Source: Lentzea tibetensis
GTDB taxonomy: Bacteria; Actinomycetota; Actinomycetes; Mycobacteriales; Pseudonocardiaceae
Direction: 5' to 3'
Assembly: GCF_007845675.1 (NCBI RefSeq)
Contig: NZ_VOBR01000036.1
Location: forward strand, 22,343-86,342
DNA length: 64,000 nt
This document shows positions 52,367 through 58,706 of this stretch, one piece after another. Position 1 is the first letter of the stretch; every line of letters begins with the position of its first letter. The notes beneath the pieces are model-generated. The model did not search any database. It saw nothing but the letters and a program-made list of their open reading frames with translations, and was not told the DNA's origin. Both the position numbers and the translations under genes were made by a program.

Positions 52367-52978
52367 TAGGTACCCCTTGATTCCTCTCGGAGGCAAGGCC
52401 AGAACTCAGCGTAACGCCATGAGTACTACACCAGGCCGACACCAGTTCGTTCCACCTTGGCCACACCGAGGCCAAGGTGGTTACCAGGCACCCAGGCGCT
52501 GGAAATGTCCCTACCGACCAGCACGCTGAGCACCCAAAGCAGCAGTGCTGCTCGGCGGTTACCCCCAGCCCGGCGTCCGGGTGCCGCCCGCAGATCGGAT
52601 CGTATTGGAAGCGACAGTCCATGCCCAAAGTGTTCTGGCTACCCTGGCCCGGCATCGTGGCCACGGCATCTGGCTTTCACAGCCAGCGCGGAGGGAGACC
52701 GCGACGCTCCTCCGGTCGAATCACCGACAAGGAAGCCGCGTCCCCGCATTGGTGTCCCGCCCGGACATTAAGGGGGAGTGGGCCGTTGTGATGTGCGTTG
52801 ATCGCCTTGCTGTTTCGGAGGAGCTGGGCGGCAGCAGTGGGAGAAGTTCGCCGGACGTGCGGCTGTCGAGTTGTCGTCTCTCCACAACGGACTCGAGTCC
52901 GGTATCCGGCTCAGCTGTCGGCGGCGAGACCACCGCACGGATCGCTGCTACATCAACTTTCTTGGCAGGAGGCCGACT
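52367..52978. other. Divergent promoter region
   Basis: About 610 bases between the XRE-TPR regulator and the 52979 gene. It holds the shared motif pair at 52422-52448. Plus-strand open frames inside have no ribosome site. No other structure seen. Confidence 0.4.
52422..52448. promoter_or_regulatory. Motif pair shared with the first XRE locus
   Basis: agtactacaccag followed by cgacaccagttc, 56 bases before the XRE-TPR start. See the matching pair at 48907-48944; spacing between the halves differs (15 versus 26 bases). Confidence 0.45.
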
Positions 52979-53479
52979 ATGAACACCACCTCGACCATGC
53001 AGACCCAACTCGACTTTCTGCGTGAGCTGTCCGACATGAAGGCACGGTACGAGGAGTCGCTCGGATGGCCGGTCTCGGTCGATGTCGGCCGCCGGCGGCT
53101 GGTAGTGCCTGCCGGGCGGGAATTCGACGCAGTGACCATGCCGTCGCATCTTGCCGAAGCCGTGCGCGCACAGCTTTGCGTGGCGATGCTGTGGAGCCCG
53201 TTGGTAGCCGCACCGGGCGGCCAATGGCTGACGTTCTTGACTACACCGGCGAGGGCGTCGCGTCCGAACCTTGCGGCTGAGCTGCGTCGTGCGCGGGTGC
53301 AACTGGTACCGCGGGGAGGTCAGGTGGTCATCCCTGCCTCGTTCGACACGCACCATGACCATGGTGAGTGGCGGTGGGTGGAGCCACCTCTGCCACGCCG
53401 CGCGCTTCCTCCGTGGTCTGCGGTCATCGCCGTGGCCCGGCGAGCCGACTCCGGTAGCCACCATGGTGGTGCTGGGTGA
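52979..53479 (+). CDS. Unknown protein of a family often labelled primase/polymerase-like
   Basis: A 166-residue protein with AGGAGG 6 bases before the ATG. It has FLRELSDMKARYEESLGWPV, SVDVGRRRLVVPAGREFDAV and TMPSHLAEAVRAQLCVAM. This pattern recurs in small actinomycete proteins often annotated as bifunctional DNA primase/polymerase-like, but the catalytic acidic motifs are not obvious, so I treat the label as weak. It is divergent from the XRE-TPR regulator and probably controlled by it. Confidence 0.65.
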   Translation: MNTTSTMQTQLDFLRELSDMKARYEESLGWPVSVDVGRRRLVVPAGREFDAVTMPSHLAEAVRAQLCVAMLWSPLVAAPGGQWLTFLTTPARASRPNLAAELRRARVQLVPRGGQVVIPASFDTHHDHGEWRWVEPPLPRRALPPWSAVIAVARRADSGSHHGGAG

Positions 53480-53584
53480 TGATCACGCTTGGTAGCTTGC
53501 TCTTGGCGCGCGACGATGTGCCTGGTGCCTCGTTGGCCCTGCTGAGTATTTCAGGATGGCAAATCGTCGTGGTCGCGGTGCACT

Positions 53585-54083
53585 GTGCTGTCATTTCATG
53601 AGATCGCTCATGTGGTCAACCTGACATGTCGGGTGGTGTACATGGATGTCGATCCGGTGGTCGTCGAGTGCAATCGGCTGCACGCAGGTCTGGCCCCAGG
53701 GGCGGAGTCATCCTTGCGGACCTCCGCGAGTATCGAAGCGGTGCTCTACGACCCGGTTGCGCGGTCGCTGCTAGATCTCCAGGAACCCGTGAACATTCTC
53801 ATGGGAGCAGTTCTGCACCATATCCCGGACAGTGACCACCGCCAGCGCGGTCGCGCGCTACTACGAGCAGCTCGCGGCCGGATGCTTCTTGGCGGCCTCA
53901 CACGTTGTGGCTGACAGCCTCACATCAGAGCAGCGGCGACACGTTGAGCGGCTGATCACCAGCCTGGGTATCACCGTGGTCGGACGAAGCCGCGCCGCGT
54001 TCGTGCGCATGCTCGGGCCGCGGAAGACCTCTGCTGACGGAGTGGTGCCGCTGTCGTGGTGGCGTTCGGAGCACGCTGGATGA
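53585..54083 (+). pseudogene. SAM-dependent methyltransferase (DUF574 type), truncated and frameshifted
   Basis: The fragment begins mid-domain (HEIAHVVNLTCRVVYMDVDP) and shows the family core SLLDLQEPVNILMGAVLHHI. Near 53830 the frame changes to ASAVARYYEQLAAGCFLAAS and SLGITVVGRSRAAFVRMLGP, ending VPLSWWR plus a short tail. The N-terminal domain with the substrate and cofactor loop is missing. A 5' deletion plus at least one indel has inactivated it. Confidence 0.7.
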
Positions 54084-54120
54084 CGCCCCAGGGGAGTGTC
54101 TGGGGTATGCAGTCCTAGCG

Positions 54121-54420
54121 ATGAAACCCGCGCCGCAGCAGTTCCCGTCGGCGCTGCACTGGCTGTGGCGATCCAGTCCTGATCGTCTCGTTGCGACCGG
54201 CCCGGATGTGCTTTCCGGGCAAGGAGTCTTCACCGTGATCGAGGAGCAGTTGGGCGACGCCGCGCGGCGCCTAACCGTGGCTGACATCGCGGACGTCTTC
54301 GCGCCTCACGATGGCGGTGGGCCGACCGCGACGGCGCGATCCGGCGCATCATCGACGGGTACCTGAACGGCAACAAGGCGGTCGAGCTGGCTATGAACCA
54401 CCGTTCCCGCTGTCAGAGTG
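54121..54420 (+). pseudogene. Unrecognised broken gene
   Basis: One frame reads PAPQQFPSALHWLWRSSPDR and RRLTVADIADVFAPHDGG; near 54310 another frame continues RWADRDGAIRRIIDGYLNGN and KAVELAMNHRSRCQ. The two halves look like one protein interrupted by an indel. No ribosome site at the first ATG. Family not recognised. Confidence 0.4.
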
Positions 54421-54447
54421 CGGGCCCCTCAGCCCGTCATCGGGGAC

Positions 54448-54867
54448 ATGTTCTCTTCGACCCGAGAGGCGATGAGTTGGTTCCGCATCGTGCGTCCCGA
54501 TGTGCTTGCGGCACAACATATCGCGGATGAACACCACTGGGATGACCTGACGCTCGGTTTCGCCGGAGCGCTGTGAGCGCCACTTCGCGGCAGCTTCGCC
54601 TGGGACGAACTGGTGACCGCTCAACGGCTCGGTGCTACGGCAGCGCGCCGCATTCACCACCCTGGGCAGGCGGTGTGCTGGGCACGGCTGGGCTTCGCGC
54701 ACACCTGTCGCGGCGAACACGACCTCGCCACACGGGCTTGTACGGCCGGTGTCCACATAACTCAGCAGCTTCGGCGTTTGGCACAGCTGCTCTGGCCACA
54801 GTCGTCCGCAGCGCATTCGGGGTTGCGGCGTACGAGCCCACTGCACGACGAATACGGAAGGAGGTGA
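54448..54867 (+). other. Decayed coding fragments upstream of the lasso cluster
   Basis: A 42-codon frame (MFSSTREAMSWFRIVRPDVL, stop at 54576) is followed by a different frame with helix-repeat-like sequence (AARRIHHPGQAVCWARLGFA, HTCRGEHDLATRACTAGVHI). It looks like the tail of a TPR-type regulator. The stretch also has to contain the promoter of the lasso precursor gene. Confidence 0.4.
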
Positions 54868-54872
54868 TGCAA

Positions 54873-54989
54873 GTGGACAGCCAGCCTTATGAGGCTCCGG
54901 TGCTGACCGATCTGGGTGAGGTCGCCGAGTTCGCCCTCGGGGAAGCCGCGCATGACACCGCAGACATGGACACCGCCCGCTACTACTAG
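54873..54989 (+). CDS. Lasso peptide precursor
   Basis: A 38-residue precursor from the GTG at 54873, chosen because AGGAGG lies 8 bases upstream; the ATG at 54867 directly abuts the Shine-Dalgarno. The leader (22 residues) carries the recognition pattern YEAPVLTDLG (YxxPxLxxxG) seen in actinobacterial lasso leaders. The predicted core is GEAAHDTADMDTARYY: Gly1 amide to Asp9 side chain would form a nine-residue ring GEAAHDTAD, with loop and tail MDTARYY. The usual Thr at leader position -2 is Ala here. Asp6-Thr7 lies within the ring, the expected site for the cluster methyltransferase to form an aspartimide. Cleavage site and ring are inferred from family rules. Confidence 0.85.
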   Translation: MDSQPYEAPVLTDLGEVAEFALGEAAHDTADMDTARYY

Positions 54990-55001
54990 CCGGCGGACGA
55001 A

Positions 55002-55038
55002 GGAAGTGGCCCGAACCGGCCTGGTCCGGGCCACCTCC
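55002..55038 (+). terminator. Attenuator-like hairpin between precursor and cyclase genes
   Basis: Arms ggaagtggcccg and cgggccacctcc pair at 11 of 12 positions around a 13-base loop, directly after the precursor stop. A partial terminator here would let the precursor be made in excess over the enzymes, as is common in lasso and other RiPP operons. Confidence 0.65.
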
Positions 55039-55062
55039 TCTCGCCGGGGTGCAGGACAGCAG

Positions 55063-56949
55063 ATGACCCCGACAGCAACACGTCGATGCTTTGTCGGCTG
55101 GGCAGGACCGGATCCGCACCCGCCGCGTACACCAGCGAACTCCAGCGTCGTCTGGAACGGAGCCAAGCCACTATGGACCGTGGGGGACTGGAGGCCCGAT
55201 GAGGTCGCTGTTGTGGCGGTGCCGCAGGCACGGGCGGCGTTCCTTGGCACCTGCCTGGCTACGGACGATGAGCTCCGGTCCGCCCTGCATGATGTGATGG
55301 CAGGGCAGGGTTTCGACGCACTGCAGGCGTTGCCGGGCTCCTACGCTGTGGTGCTCGACGACGGCCACCGCCTCCATGTGATCACTGATCGGGCGGGTCT
55401 GCATCCGGTGTTCCATACCGACCTGGCCGGAAGCACCCTGTTCGCCTCCGATGCACTGATGGCGGCCTCGGTGCATCACCGCAACCTCGCCGAGGCGGTG
55501 AACCCGCTCGTCGTGGCTGCCTGGCTGTATCTGCCGGACCTGCTCGAGCCTCGCGGCCAGGACAGCGTGTTTCGCCGAGTGGGCAGGGTCGGCGCGGCTC
55601 AGGTTCTCACCATGACGCCCTACCACAGTCCTCAGTTCCGTCAACTGCCGTTGAAGCAGGGATCTCGAAGTATTGGAGAGGCGGCCCCCATGCTGGCCGA
55701 GGCACTGGTGAAGGCTGTGGGCTGGCGCGTGGACCGCGCCAGCCAGGTCAGCACCGATCTGTCGGGCGGTCTCGACTCGTCCTCTTGCGCCGTCCTGGCG
55801 GCGCAAGCCGGTGCCGCGCCGCTCGCGGTGACCTACGCTGACCCGCGTTCGGTCAACGACGAGGACGTGCAGTTCGCCAGCTCCGTGGCGTCCGCGGAAC
55901 CCGGTCTGCGTCACCTGGTCATCATCGGCCGCATCGCGACGTTGCCGTTCACCGACATGCAGTCCATACCGATCTGCGACGAGCCAAGCCTCGATGCCCT
56001 GATCATCGCCCGGACCCGCCACCGACTGGGCCCGGCGCTCGAGCATCGCAGCGAGTGCCACCTCACCGGGGGCGGCGGTGACGTCGTGCTGACCGCGCCC
56101 GGCCTGACGTACTTGGGCGACCTCGCCCGCGCTGGCCACCGTTCCCTGCGGCACGAAGCCAGCGGCTGGGCTCGCCTGAGACACCACCCCGCCCGACATG
56201 TGCGCAAAGCCGCGACACGATTGGCCCGAACCTCGTGGACCGCCACCATCCGGACACTTGCCGACCAACTCGTCAACCCGCATCTGGTCGCGACGGCACG
56301 ACGCGGTCTGGACTCCCAGCTGGCTTGGGCCGTCCTGTCCCCGTGCGCCGCGTGGGGCACCCTGCGGATGCGTCAGGCGCTCGCAGCGCGACTAACTGCG
56401 GCCGCCGTGGTCTCGTCATCCGAGGGTGTTCAACCCGATAGTGCTGATGGCGCCGCGTGGCGCGCGGTGCAGTGGCACGGCGCCGCCACTCGCGGCTTCC
56501 ACCAGGTCGCTCGAACGTGGGGCCTGGTGGTGCACAGCCCGTTCCTGGACAGCCAGGTCATCGACGCGTGCTTGGCTGTTCCAGCCGGTGAACGGACCAC
56601 TGTGGACAAACCCAAACCATTGTTAGCAGCCGCGCTGGATGATCGGCTGCCGCCCGGACTCTTGGAACGCCGTACCAAGGGGGACTACAGCACCTGCGAG
56701 TACCAAGGACTGCGAGCCAACGCCGACACGCTGCGCGCACTACTGGCCAAGCCGCTGCTGTCCGAACTGGACATCCTCATCCCGGAGGGACCGCGCGACG
56801 CGCTGCAAGTCGGCCTGGCAGGCGCTTCAGCTCCACTCGGCGCCCTGGGCTCGGTGATCGCCACCGAGATCTGGCTGCACGCCCTGCACAACCTCGACCC
56901 CACCGACTGGTGGCACACCCCGCGCACCCGAGAGGAGCGACCACGATGA
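55063..56949 (+). CDS. Lasso cyclase, asparagine-synthetase-like (LasC type)
   Basis: A 628-residue ATP-dependent macrolactam synthetase expected to adenylate the Asp9 side chain and close the ring on Gly1. The N-terminal glutaminase-like domain lacks the catalytic Cys-2 (it starts TPTATRRCFVGWAG), as in other lasso cyclases. The synthetase domain has the PP-loop SGGLDSS at residues 234-240 and later CDEPSLDALIIARTRHRLG and RRTKGDYSTCEYQGLR. The ATG at 55063 has AGGA upstream. The stop overlaps the next gene (ATGA), so cyclase and RRE protein are coupled. Confidence 0.9.
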   Translation: MTPTATRRCFVGWAGPDPHPPRTPANSSVVWNGAKPLWTVGDWRPDEVAVVAVPQARAAFLGTCLATDDELRSALHDVMAGQGFDALQALPGSYAVVLDDGHRLHVITDRAGLHPVFHTDLAGSTLFASDALMAASVHHRNLAEAVNPLVVAAWLYLPDLLEPRGQDSVFRRVGRVGAAQVLTMTPYHSPQFRQLPLKQGSRSIGEAAPMLAEALVKAVGWRVDRASQVSTDLSGGLDSSSCAVLAAQAGAAPLAVTYADPRSVNDEDVQFASSVASAEPGLRHLVIIGRIATLPFTDMQSIPICDEPSLDALIIARTRHRLGPALEHRSECHLTGGGGDVVLTAPGLTYLGDLARAGHRSLRHEASGWARLRHHPARHVRKAATRLARTSWTATIRTLADQLVNPHLVATARRGLDSQLAWAVLSPCAAWGTLRMRQALAARLTAAAVVSSSEGVQPDSADGAAWRAVQWHGAATRGFHQVARTWGLVVHSPFLDSQVIDACLAVPAGERTTVDKPKPLLAAALDDRLPPGLLERRTKGDYSTCEYQGLRANADTLRALLAKPLLSELDILIPEGPRDALQVGLAGASAPLGALGSVIATEIWLHALHNLDPTDWWHTPRTREERPR

Positions 56950-57212
56950 ACGCGCTCGCACCACCGCCCACCATCTCGCAGGTCACCACCGAGGACGGCA
57001 TGGTGCTCCTGGACGACGACCGCGGCCGCCTCTACGGCCTCAACCGCACCGCCAGCGCGATCTGGCGTGCCCTGGCCGACGGCCACAGCGTCGAGCAGGC
57101 CAGCCGGGATCTCGCCGCCCGCTTCGACAACACACCGGACCGCATCCGCGCCGACGTGGAGACCCTGGTGGCCCAGCTGCGCGACCGCGGCCTACTCACG
57201 AGGGAAGGCTAA
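56946..57212 (+). CDS. RiPP recognition element, PqqD-like (LasB1 type)
   Basis: An 88-residue PqqD-like protein that binds the precursor leader and hands it to the peptidase. It shows the fold pattern of three strands (TTEDGMVLLDDDRGRLYGLN) then helices (TASAIWRALADGHSVEQASR, ADVETLVAQLRDRGLL). GAGGAG precedes the ATG, which overlaps the cyclase stop. Standalone B1 is the normal arrangement in actinobacterial lasso clusters. Confidence 0.9.
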   Translation: MNALAPPPTISQVTTEDGMVLLDDDRGRLYGLNRTASAIWRALADGHSVEQASRDLAARFDNTPDRIRADVETLVAQLRDRGLLTREG

Positions 57213-57215
57213 GCC

Positions 57216-57638
57216 GTGACCGCACCCATGGCGCTGGACACTCCCGCCGTACCGCAGCCCATCGGCCGCCTCGACAGACTCCTCGCCCCGCCGTGCCTCA
57301 CCGTGGCGACCTGGCTGTTGCGATTGCGCTTCAGGCACGTCCTGGCCATCGCCCAATGGGCCAAACGCCGTTGTCCCCAGCAGGCCAGCGCTGCCCAGGC
57401 AACAGGTGTAAACGCCGCCATTCGCCTCGCCGGCCGTTATCGACCACACCGCGTCGCCTGTATGGAAGTCTCGCTGGCCACCGTGCTGCTCGCAGCGACA
57501 CAGCGACGATCTGTCGACTGGTGCATCGGCGCCCGGCTCATGCCCTACGCCGCGCACGCTTGGATCGAGGTCGACGGCATCGTTGTCGGTGAACCTGATA
57601 CCCGCGACCGGCCTTACCACGTCCTGCGCCGAGCCTGA
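57216..57638 (+). CDS. Lasso leader peptidase, transglutaminase-like (LasB2 type)
   Basis: A 140-residue cysteine protease that removes the precursor leader. The catalytic Cys82 is in RVACMEVSLA and His114 in MPYAAHAWIEVDG, followed by GEPDT where the triad Asp is probably located. Length is normal for standalone B2 proteins. The GTG start follows the B1 stop by 3 bp with AAGG upstream, so the genes are cotranscribed. Confidence 0.9.
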   Translation: MTAPMALDTPAVPQPIGRLDRLLAPPCLTVATWLLRLRFRHVLAIAQWAKRRCPQQASAAQATGVNAAIRLAGRYRPHRVACMEVSLATVLLAATQRRSVDWCIGARLMPYAAHAWIEVDGIVVGEPDTRDRPYHVLRRA

Positions 57639-57665
57639 CCCGTCACAACAACTAGGGAACGCCCT

Positions 57666-58706
57666 ATGACCACGCACTCCCCAGCAGTCACCCGCGCGCT
57701 GGCCGAAGTCGACGAAGACACCTTCGTCCGCCGCCCGGACGGCAACCTCGTCAGCCAGAGCTCCTCGCAACCCATCATCGCTAACCTGATCGACCGCCTC
57801 AACGTCCAGCCCGGCATGAAGGTGCTGGAAATCGGCACCGGCTCCGGCTACTCCACCGCCCTGCTCGCGCATCTGGCCGCAGACGGCGGCCACGTCGTCA
57901 GCGTCGACGTCGTCGCCGAACTCGTCGACCGTGCCCGGCAACTGCTCACCGCCCACGGCCACAGCAACACCACGCTCCTGCACGGAGACGGCATTCAAGG
58001 CGCACCTGGGCACGGACCCTTCGACCGCGTCATCGCCTGGACCACCGCCCCACACCTACCCGCCGCCTGGACCACCCAGCTGTCCCCCGACGGAGCGATC
58101 GTCGCCCCGCTCACCGCAGCGCCGATCAGCAAGAGCGGTCTGGGCGCACACATCCGGCTCGGCAGCGACGCCAGCCCGGTTGCCGACCAACTCTTCGCCG
58201 CCGGGTTCGTCGAACTGTCCGGGGTAGCCGTTGACCAGTGGCTGGTCCCGCCCTACGGGATCGATGTGCTACGCCACGACGACAAGCACCGGCCCTGGTG
58301 GCTGTCCGGCGAGTGGATCCGCAGCCCGCGTCACTACCTCGACGGGCGATACGTACTCGACGCCCTCATCCAAAGCCACGACCACATTCCCGGCCCGCTG
58401 CAGCCCGACGAGTCCGCCGCCGACTGGCGAGCCTGGCTGCTCGCCACCCGACCCGCCGGCCTCACGACCGCAGCACTGGGAGAACCACTCTGGCGCATCG
58501 GCCACACCCACCAAACCGGCGCCGCACTGACCGACGCACGAACCGCCACCCAGACCGTGATCACCTCAGCCAACGCCGACGCCGAAGTCCTCACCGACTG
58601 GGCCGACGCCTGGCGCGCCGCAGGCCGCCCCGGTCTCACCGACCTCGTACCCCACCTCGAGGCATTCCACGACGGCTGGGTGCTCCGCACAACCGCCCCG
58701 CGGTGA
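57666..58706 (+). CDS. Protein-L-isoaspartate methyltransferase homologue (lasso tailoring)
   Basis: A 346-residue SAM-dependent O-methyltransferase. It has the PIMT signature QSSSQP (residues 31-36), motif I VLEIGTGSGYST (53-64) and SVDVVAELVDRARQLL. Housekeeping repair PIMTs are about 200-230 residues; here an extra C-terminal region of about 120 residues (from WLVPPYGIDVLRHDDKHRPW) is present, as expected for lasso-cluster members. It should methylate a ring Asp (Asp6, before Thr7), which then closes to an aspartimide. It lies 27 bp after the leader peptidase in the same operon. Confidence 0.88.
   Translation: MTTHSPAVTRALAEVDEDTFVRRPDGNLVSQSSSQPIIANLIDRLNVQPGMKVLEIGTGSGYSTALLAHLAADGGHVVSVDVVAELVDRARQLLTAHGHSNTTLLHGDGIQGAPGHGPFDRVIAWTTAPHLPAAWTTQLSPDGAIVAPLTAAPISKSGLGAHIRLGSDASPVADQLFAAGFVELSGVAVDQWLVPPYGIDVLRHDDKHRPWWLSGEWIRSPRHYLDGRYVLDALIQSHDHIPGPLQPDESAADWRAWLLATRPAGLTTAALGEPLWRIGHTHQTGAALTDARTATQTVITSANADAEVLTDWADAWRAAGRPGLTDLVPHLEAFHDGWVLRTTAPR

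Follow-up and report, generated by a model that had tools for sequence, protein, structure and literature searches.

A lasso gene set that ends in a methyltransferase

The question raised by this locus is what a PIMT-like methyltransferase does at the end of a lasso peptide gene cluster. The cluster lies in a stretch of 64,000 nucleotides from Lentzea tibetensis (assembly GCF_007845675.1, contig NZ_VOBR01000036.1, positions 22,343 to 86,342), which we call the window and whose numbering is used throughout. We propose, with a probability of about 0.88, that it is a lassimiditide cluster, whose product would carry one aspartimide, at Asp6 of the lasso core. Lassimiditides are aspartimide-bearing lasso peptides, and according to a 2026 review two of them, cellulonodin-2 and lihuanodin, have been characterised, both with the motif DTAD at positions 6–9; 58 more were mined by Cao et al. 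(2023), seven of them with Ser7 (Zhu and Link, 2026, PMC13001092), and Kim and colleagues described 67 lasso clusters with two precursor groups (PMC10787088, PMC13001092).

Five lasso-cluster genes, each without internal stop, lie on the forward strand between 54873 and 58706. The precursor gene (54873..54989) is followed by the gene for a lasso macrolactam cyclase of 628 residues (C; 55063..56949), by that for an RRE or PqqD-like leader-binding protein (E or B1; 56946..57212), which is joined to the cyclase gene by an ATGA overlap, by that for the leader peptidase (B or B2; 57216..57638), and finally by the gene for the PIMT-like aspartyl methyltransferase (M; 57666..58706). The preliminary description had reported a complete lasso gene set, and this holds, as curated models identify each gene: the precursor matches the lasso leader model NF033521 (20.2 bits, cut-off 19), though a Pfam scan of it gave no match, the cyclase matches PF00733 and the albusnodin/ikarugamycin cyclase model NF033561 (320.7 bits, cut-off 300), the RRE protein PF05402 and the lasso PqqD model NF033530 (78.7 bits, cut-off 70), the peptidase PF13471 and the lasso B2 model NF033537 (82.3 bits, cut-off 33), and the methyltransferase the PCMT family PF01135 (106.3 bits, cut-off 20.3). 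A leader-bearing precursor gene thus stands together with cyclase, RRE and B2 genes, and because the gene order, the leader and the DTAD motif recur in other actinobacterial genomes, the lasso cluster is confirmed as real and not a product of chance.

The precursor has 38 residues if read from the GTG at 54873, and 40 if the ATG at 54867 is taken as the start. The GTG appears to be the better choice, because the putative ribosome-binding site in front of it, GGAGGTGA, is invariant in four species (the window and the loci L093, L095 and L113; L numbers denote loci and G numbers genomes), and because L113 has an ATG at the aligned codon. A leader of 22 residues with the pattern Y-x-x-P-x-L-x-x-L-G precedes the predicted core GEAAHDTADMDTARYY (54939..54986), whose ring would span G1 to D9. 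The ring GEAAHDTAD and the tail MDTARYY agree with the preliminary description. The ring motif D6-T7-A8-D9 corresponds to the D(T/S)AD at positions 6–9 of lassimiditide group 1, and Asp6-Thr7 (54954..54959) is the predicted aspartimide site, as suggested by residue conservation and by the precedent of cellulonodin-2 and lihuanodin, which are modified at this position (PMC13001092).

Asp6 accompanies the methyltransferase

Among 25 genomes of the genus, the own genome included, a search with the methyltransferase found an 80% match in G020 and near-full-length matches also in G002 and G011; the cluster is also present in Lentzea sp. NBRC 105346, where the methyltransferase is 80% identical, and identities to the enzymes of L095, L096 and L113 are 62–66%. 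A wider search with a three-sequence profile (E <= 1e-45) in partly overlapping genome sets gave matches in 24 of 391 genomes of the family and 5 of 394 of the class (own genome counted in both), in 38 of 341 genomes of a second family, and in 1 of 22 of a third. Outside the own genome there were 68 distinct matches, from which 60 loci were taken; three more (L219, L220 and L222) were covered by the cyclase search described below, and five were left out. Using hand-made leader patterns, we could read a lasso precursor in 35 of these 60 loci, including L099, where only a cyclase fragment is present; the other 25 are explained by contig ends, by no cyclase being found, or by no match to the leader patterns. 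Together with the window and with L220 and L222, this yields 38 readable precursors beside a methyltransferase, with 33 different cores.

Exactly DTAD is found in 30 of these 38 rows (25 different cores), in agreement with the review (PMC13001092), and DTAD as a characteristic motif, as given in the preliminary description, is thereby confirmed. The broader pattern G-x4-D-[TS]-x-[DE] fits 37 of the 38 precursors and 32 of the 33 different cores, the exception being L220 with D-K-V-D. All 33 different cores have Asp6. At position 7 they have Thr (28 cores), Ser (four) or Lys (one), and at position 9 Asp (32 cores) or Glu (one).

As a control, cyclases were searched in 388 genomes of the family (E <= 1e-30; matches in 82 genomes), and 40 loci were taken, chiefly high-ranking ones and none that had already been fetched. 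Three of them carry a methyltransferase, and among these a precursor could be read in L220 and L222 but not in L219. In the 37 loci without a methyltransferase above 200 bits, among which we count L197 and L212 with weak PIMT matches of 113 and 88 bits, a precursor could be read in 23 and none in 14. None of these 23 precursors has D6-[T/S]7-x-[D/E]9; position 6 is Gly in ten, Ser in nine, Thr in two and Asn in two, but never Asp, and typical cores are GSSSSGNADANSQYYW. As Asp6 occurs in all methyltransferase-linked cores and in none of the 23 others, we conclude that Asp6 tracks the methyltransferase and not the lasso fold. The contrast is a strong pattern rather than a formal test, because the rows are related by descent, with some cores identical, and because the two cyclase sets differ in kinship: the 37 control cyclases score 341–480 bits against a profile made from the methyltransferase clusters, whose own cyclases mostly score higher. 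A Fisher value calculated from these counts should accordingly not be taken as a fair probability.

Some relatives with related methyltransferases (L144, L145, L149, L150, L151 and L104) have DSED, DTQD, DSMD, DTKD or DTME in place of D(T/S)AD. Judging from these motifs, Ala8 may be dispensable, and the Glu9 of L104, where an in-frame stop interrupts the cyclase frame, suggests that the Asp9 ring closure is perhaps variable as well.

Predicted pathway and product

By analogy with cellulonodin-2 and lihuanodin, we infer that threading precedes methylation, that a single aspartimide forms at Asp6, and that Thr7 governs its re-opening. The leader would be bound by the RRE protein and cut off by B2, and the cyclase would link Gly1 to the side chain of Asp9, the ring closing around the tail MDTARYY. 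The methyltransferase would then methylate Asp6 of the threaded product, and an attack of the Thr7 amide on the ester, with loss of methanol, would convert Asp6 to an aspartimide within the ring. An enzyme acting on the threaded product has a precedent in TceM, which requires the whole lasso (PMC13001092). The calculated [M+H]+ of a lasso product with one aspartimide is 1750.71, compared with 1768.72 for the unmodified lasso, 1782.74 for the methyl ester and 1732.70 for a product with two aspartimides.

The aspartimide could also be a mere intermediate, with isoAsp at position 6 as the final product, as in the case of the lanthipeptide OlvA, and with a ring larger by one atom. For the lanthipeptide and graspetide enzymes of this family, hydrolysis leads mainly to isoAsp (PMC13001092). 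However, position 7 is Thr in the window, as in most of the methyltransferase-linked cores counted above (28 of 33), and the review describes for lihuanodin that Thr7 directs hydrolysis to Asp, and that isoAsp leads to unthreading in this peptide (PMC13001092). We consider an isoAsp end product quite unlikely, and the preferred product remains the aspartimide, which, if re-opened, would by virtue of Thr7 return to Asp in preference to isoAsp, with the knot retained.

The second Asp-Thr pair

The tail contains another Asp-Thr pair, Asp11-Thr12 (54969..54974). If both Asp6 and Asp11 were methylated in the host and in Lentzea sp. NBRC 105346, their peptides would carry a second aspartimide, located in the loop or the threaded tail, in addition to that of the ring; Asp would here replace the usual Asn beside Thr12, and the enzyme would reach both sites. 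The window and L093 do each carry two Asp-Thr pairs, a loop Asp is conserved in some described lasso precursors (PMC10787088), and the precursors of L220 and L222, which represent a second type, have Asp10-Thr11 in the corresponding region. Against this stands the variability of the position: of the 25 different DTAD cores, 12 have Asn at residue 11, seven have Lys, two Asp, two Gly, one Arg and one Gln, the two with Asp being the window and L093, and the tree neighbours L095, L096 and L113, also DTAD loci, have the tail MNTARYY. Furthermore, a large distance separates the window enzyme from its L220 and L222 counterparts in the methyltransferase tree, and according to the review the known enzymes of this type each have one Asp as their target (PMC13001092). 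Modification at both positions is thus very unlikely. The tail pair that the preliminary description had pointed out is present, but it is not conserved and is no evidence of a second site. Variation like that at position 11 would not be expected of a conserved site of modification, and an ordinary, lineage-specific substitution is the best reading of the pair. With Asp11 in two of 25 different DTAD cores, and with an enzyme only remotely related to the L220 and L222 enzymes, the window also does not belong to lassimiditide group 2, which is defined by a conserved loop Asp.

In L220 and L222 the core is GIMKFD[K/S]VDDTQYKHS, with Asp10-Thr11 directly after the presumed ring and more distant methyltransferases. 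Our guess is that these two loci represent the published loop-Asp group 2.

The methyltransferase and its relatives

The methyltransferase has 346 residues, and every Pfam match ends at or before residue 150, with PF01135 covering residues 5–150; the models TIGR04188 and TIGR04364 for peptide-maturing methyltransferases extend to 153 and 187, respectively, with scores far under their cut-offs. The C-terminal extension in the earlier reading is thus indeed there, and full-length alignment with other lasso-cluster enzymes identifies the protein as the PIMT homologue plus C-terminal domain of such clusters. Near its C-terminus lies WRAAGRP, which corresponds to the WXXXGXP motif that lasso, graspetide and imiditide enzymes have in common in their C-terminal domain (PMC13001092) and which is present in 29 of the 30 DTAD-cluster enzymes, the window included, and absent from that of L094.

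A quick maximum-likelihood tree was calculated with 70 methyltransferases, without L152 and L219 and with eight of the 26 PIMT-like proteins of the genus. The window enzyme pairs with that of L093 with 99% support in the Shimodaira–Hasegawa-like approximate likelihood ratio test (SH-aLRT), and a set of six with equal support comprises the enzymes of five DTAD clusters (the window, L093, L113, L095 and L096) and L110, which has a long branch and no lasso genes within the fetched stretch. The eight PIMT-like proteins from the genus stand apart on a branch of their own (99% SH-aLRT). Membership in the aspartimide lasso class, as claimed in the preliminary description, is supported by the DTAD motif, by the cluster methyltransferase, and by this grouping with DTAD-cluster enzymes.

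Three further methyltransferases, of L117, L120 and L123, nest among the lasso-cluster enzymes; no cyclase is present in the fetched stretches, and a weak B2 match (30–57 bits) adjoins or overlaps the methyltransferase. These loci may be remnants of clusters that lost their lasso genes but kept the methyltransferase. Another six (L135, L136, L138, L139, L140 and L143) form one branch inside the lasso set, and in all but L136 the leader pattern matched the end of a short peptide encoded immediately upstream; these ends resemble one another and contain IEV stretches that recur. Prompted by the mention of Nonomuraea maritima in the review (PMC13001092), we guess that these are imiditide enzymes.

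A canonical PIMT repair enzyme was rejected as an assignment: the protein has 346 residues, whereas the solved PIMT structures that were matched mostly have 208–235, and its gene belongs to a lasso gene set in the window as well as in relatives. It is likewise extremely unlikely that a housekeeping isoaspartate repair enzyme, or an enzyme of another pathway, is a chance neighbour of the lasso genes, because, although the catalytic part matches ordinary PIMT, the gene order is kept in relatives whose enzymes are merely 31–45% identical, the alignments to these cluster enzymes are full-length, and eight PIMT-like proteins of the genus branch separately. The alignments of all 26 PIMT-like matches in the genus are confined to the catalytic part of the window enzyme and reach no further than about residue 207. 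Hardly more credible is a stable methyl ester at Asp6 or the C-terminus, as formed by LasF/StspM on lassomycin-like peptides: an ester would be the first step in either case, but StspM was modelled on mitomycin-7-O-methyltransferase (PMC9266682), whereas the window enzyme is PCMT-like, and enzymes of its type accompany the Asp6 motif.

Several observations weigh against one aspartimide at Asp6 as the outcome of a typical lassimiditide cluster. The enzymes of DTAD clusters do not form one clade: DTAD rows intermingle with variant-motif rows and with enzymes for which no lasso precursor was found, although they are clustered (10 label changes, compared with a mean of 23.0 after shuffling). Leader residue −2 is Ala in the window precursor, while the 30 DTAD rows have Thr in 21, Ile in five, Ala in two, and Met and Val in one each. 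A Pfam scan of nine window proteins identified no exporter among those nine. The WXXXGXP motif adds little weight, being found also in 20 of 26 non-DTAD enzymes and in 15 of the 26 same-genus PIMT-like matches, and a C-terminal extension with this motif is ruled out as a lasso-specific mark. The AlphaFold model of the methyltransferase, calculated from a three-row alignment, is too poor to show the C-terminal fold, with a mean predicted local distance difference test score (pLDDT) of 41.5. Sequence searches against solved structures do not reach beyond the catalytic part, and a profile of 21 enzymes aligns to 1dl5, which has the T. maritima-type C-terminal domain, only at 46–178.

Flanking region and a second cyclase locus

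Upstream of the cluster lies a small Prim-Pol-like open reading frame (52802..53479, forward strand; PF09250, 22.1 bits, just below the cut-off of 22.8). L004, L095 and L096 have a homologue on the upstream side of the cluster, each being the best match of its genome; the genomes in which the copy by the lasso cluster is the best match are G020, G250 and G117. In 6 of the 11 genomes searched, G492 included, there was no match. This reading frame is a possible syntenic neighbour of the cluster. The region between it and the precursor gene (53480–54866, about 1.39 kb) contains short, broken-looking frames and looks like debris in this lineage; the corresponding gap in L004 is about 0.1 kb.

The host assembly (9.36 Mb in 105 contigs) contains a second lasso cyclase locus (L212, G000 contig 69; NF033561, 708 bits), in which the leader-pattern search found no precursor.

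Relation to known systems

Lihuanodin and cellulonodin-2, as described in the review (PMC13001092), resemble the window cluster in their lasso genes, in the PIMT-like methyltransferase with C-terminal domain, in DTAD at 6–9, and in ring closure at Asp9; compared by the described motif and not letter by letter, the window core differs by the additional Asp11-Thr12. With the mined lassimiditides (58, and the 67 clusters) it has D(T/S)AD in common, and it or the cluster of Lentzea sp. NBRC 105346 may be among them. The cyclase resembles the albusnodin family in passing NF033561, but albusnodin is acetylated (PMC13352647), whereas the window has a methyltransferase and Asp6-Thr7 in the ring. Imiditides or type I pamtides and graspimiditides have related aspartyl methyltransferases with a C-terminal domain and WXXXGXP, but these act on linear or ATP-grasp-crosslinked peptides (PMC13001092), whereas the window enzyme accompanies lasso genes.

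No open paper was found with either of the strings TADMDTARY and HDTADMNTARY; our search did not extend to the published lists of mined members, where the core may be listed. The comparisons support a mechanism that would follow close precedent, and the cluster would be an example of a described class, possibly already contained in published lists. As a further intact cluster, it is useful for probing the reach of the DTAD rule, and the contrast at position 6, with Asp in 33 of 33 different methyltransferase-linked cores and in 0 of 23 rows without the enzyme, spells out the residue rule.

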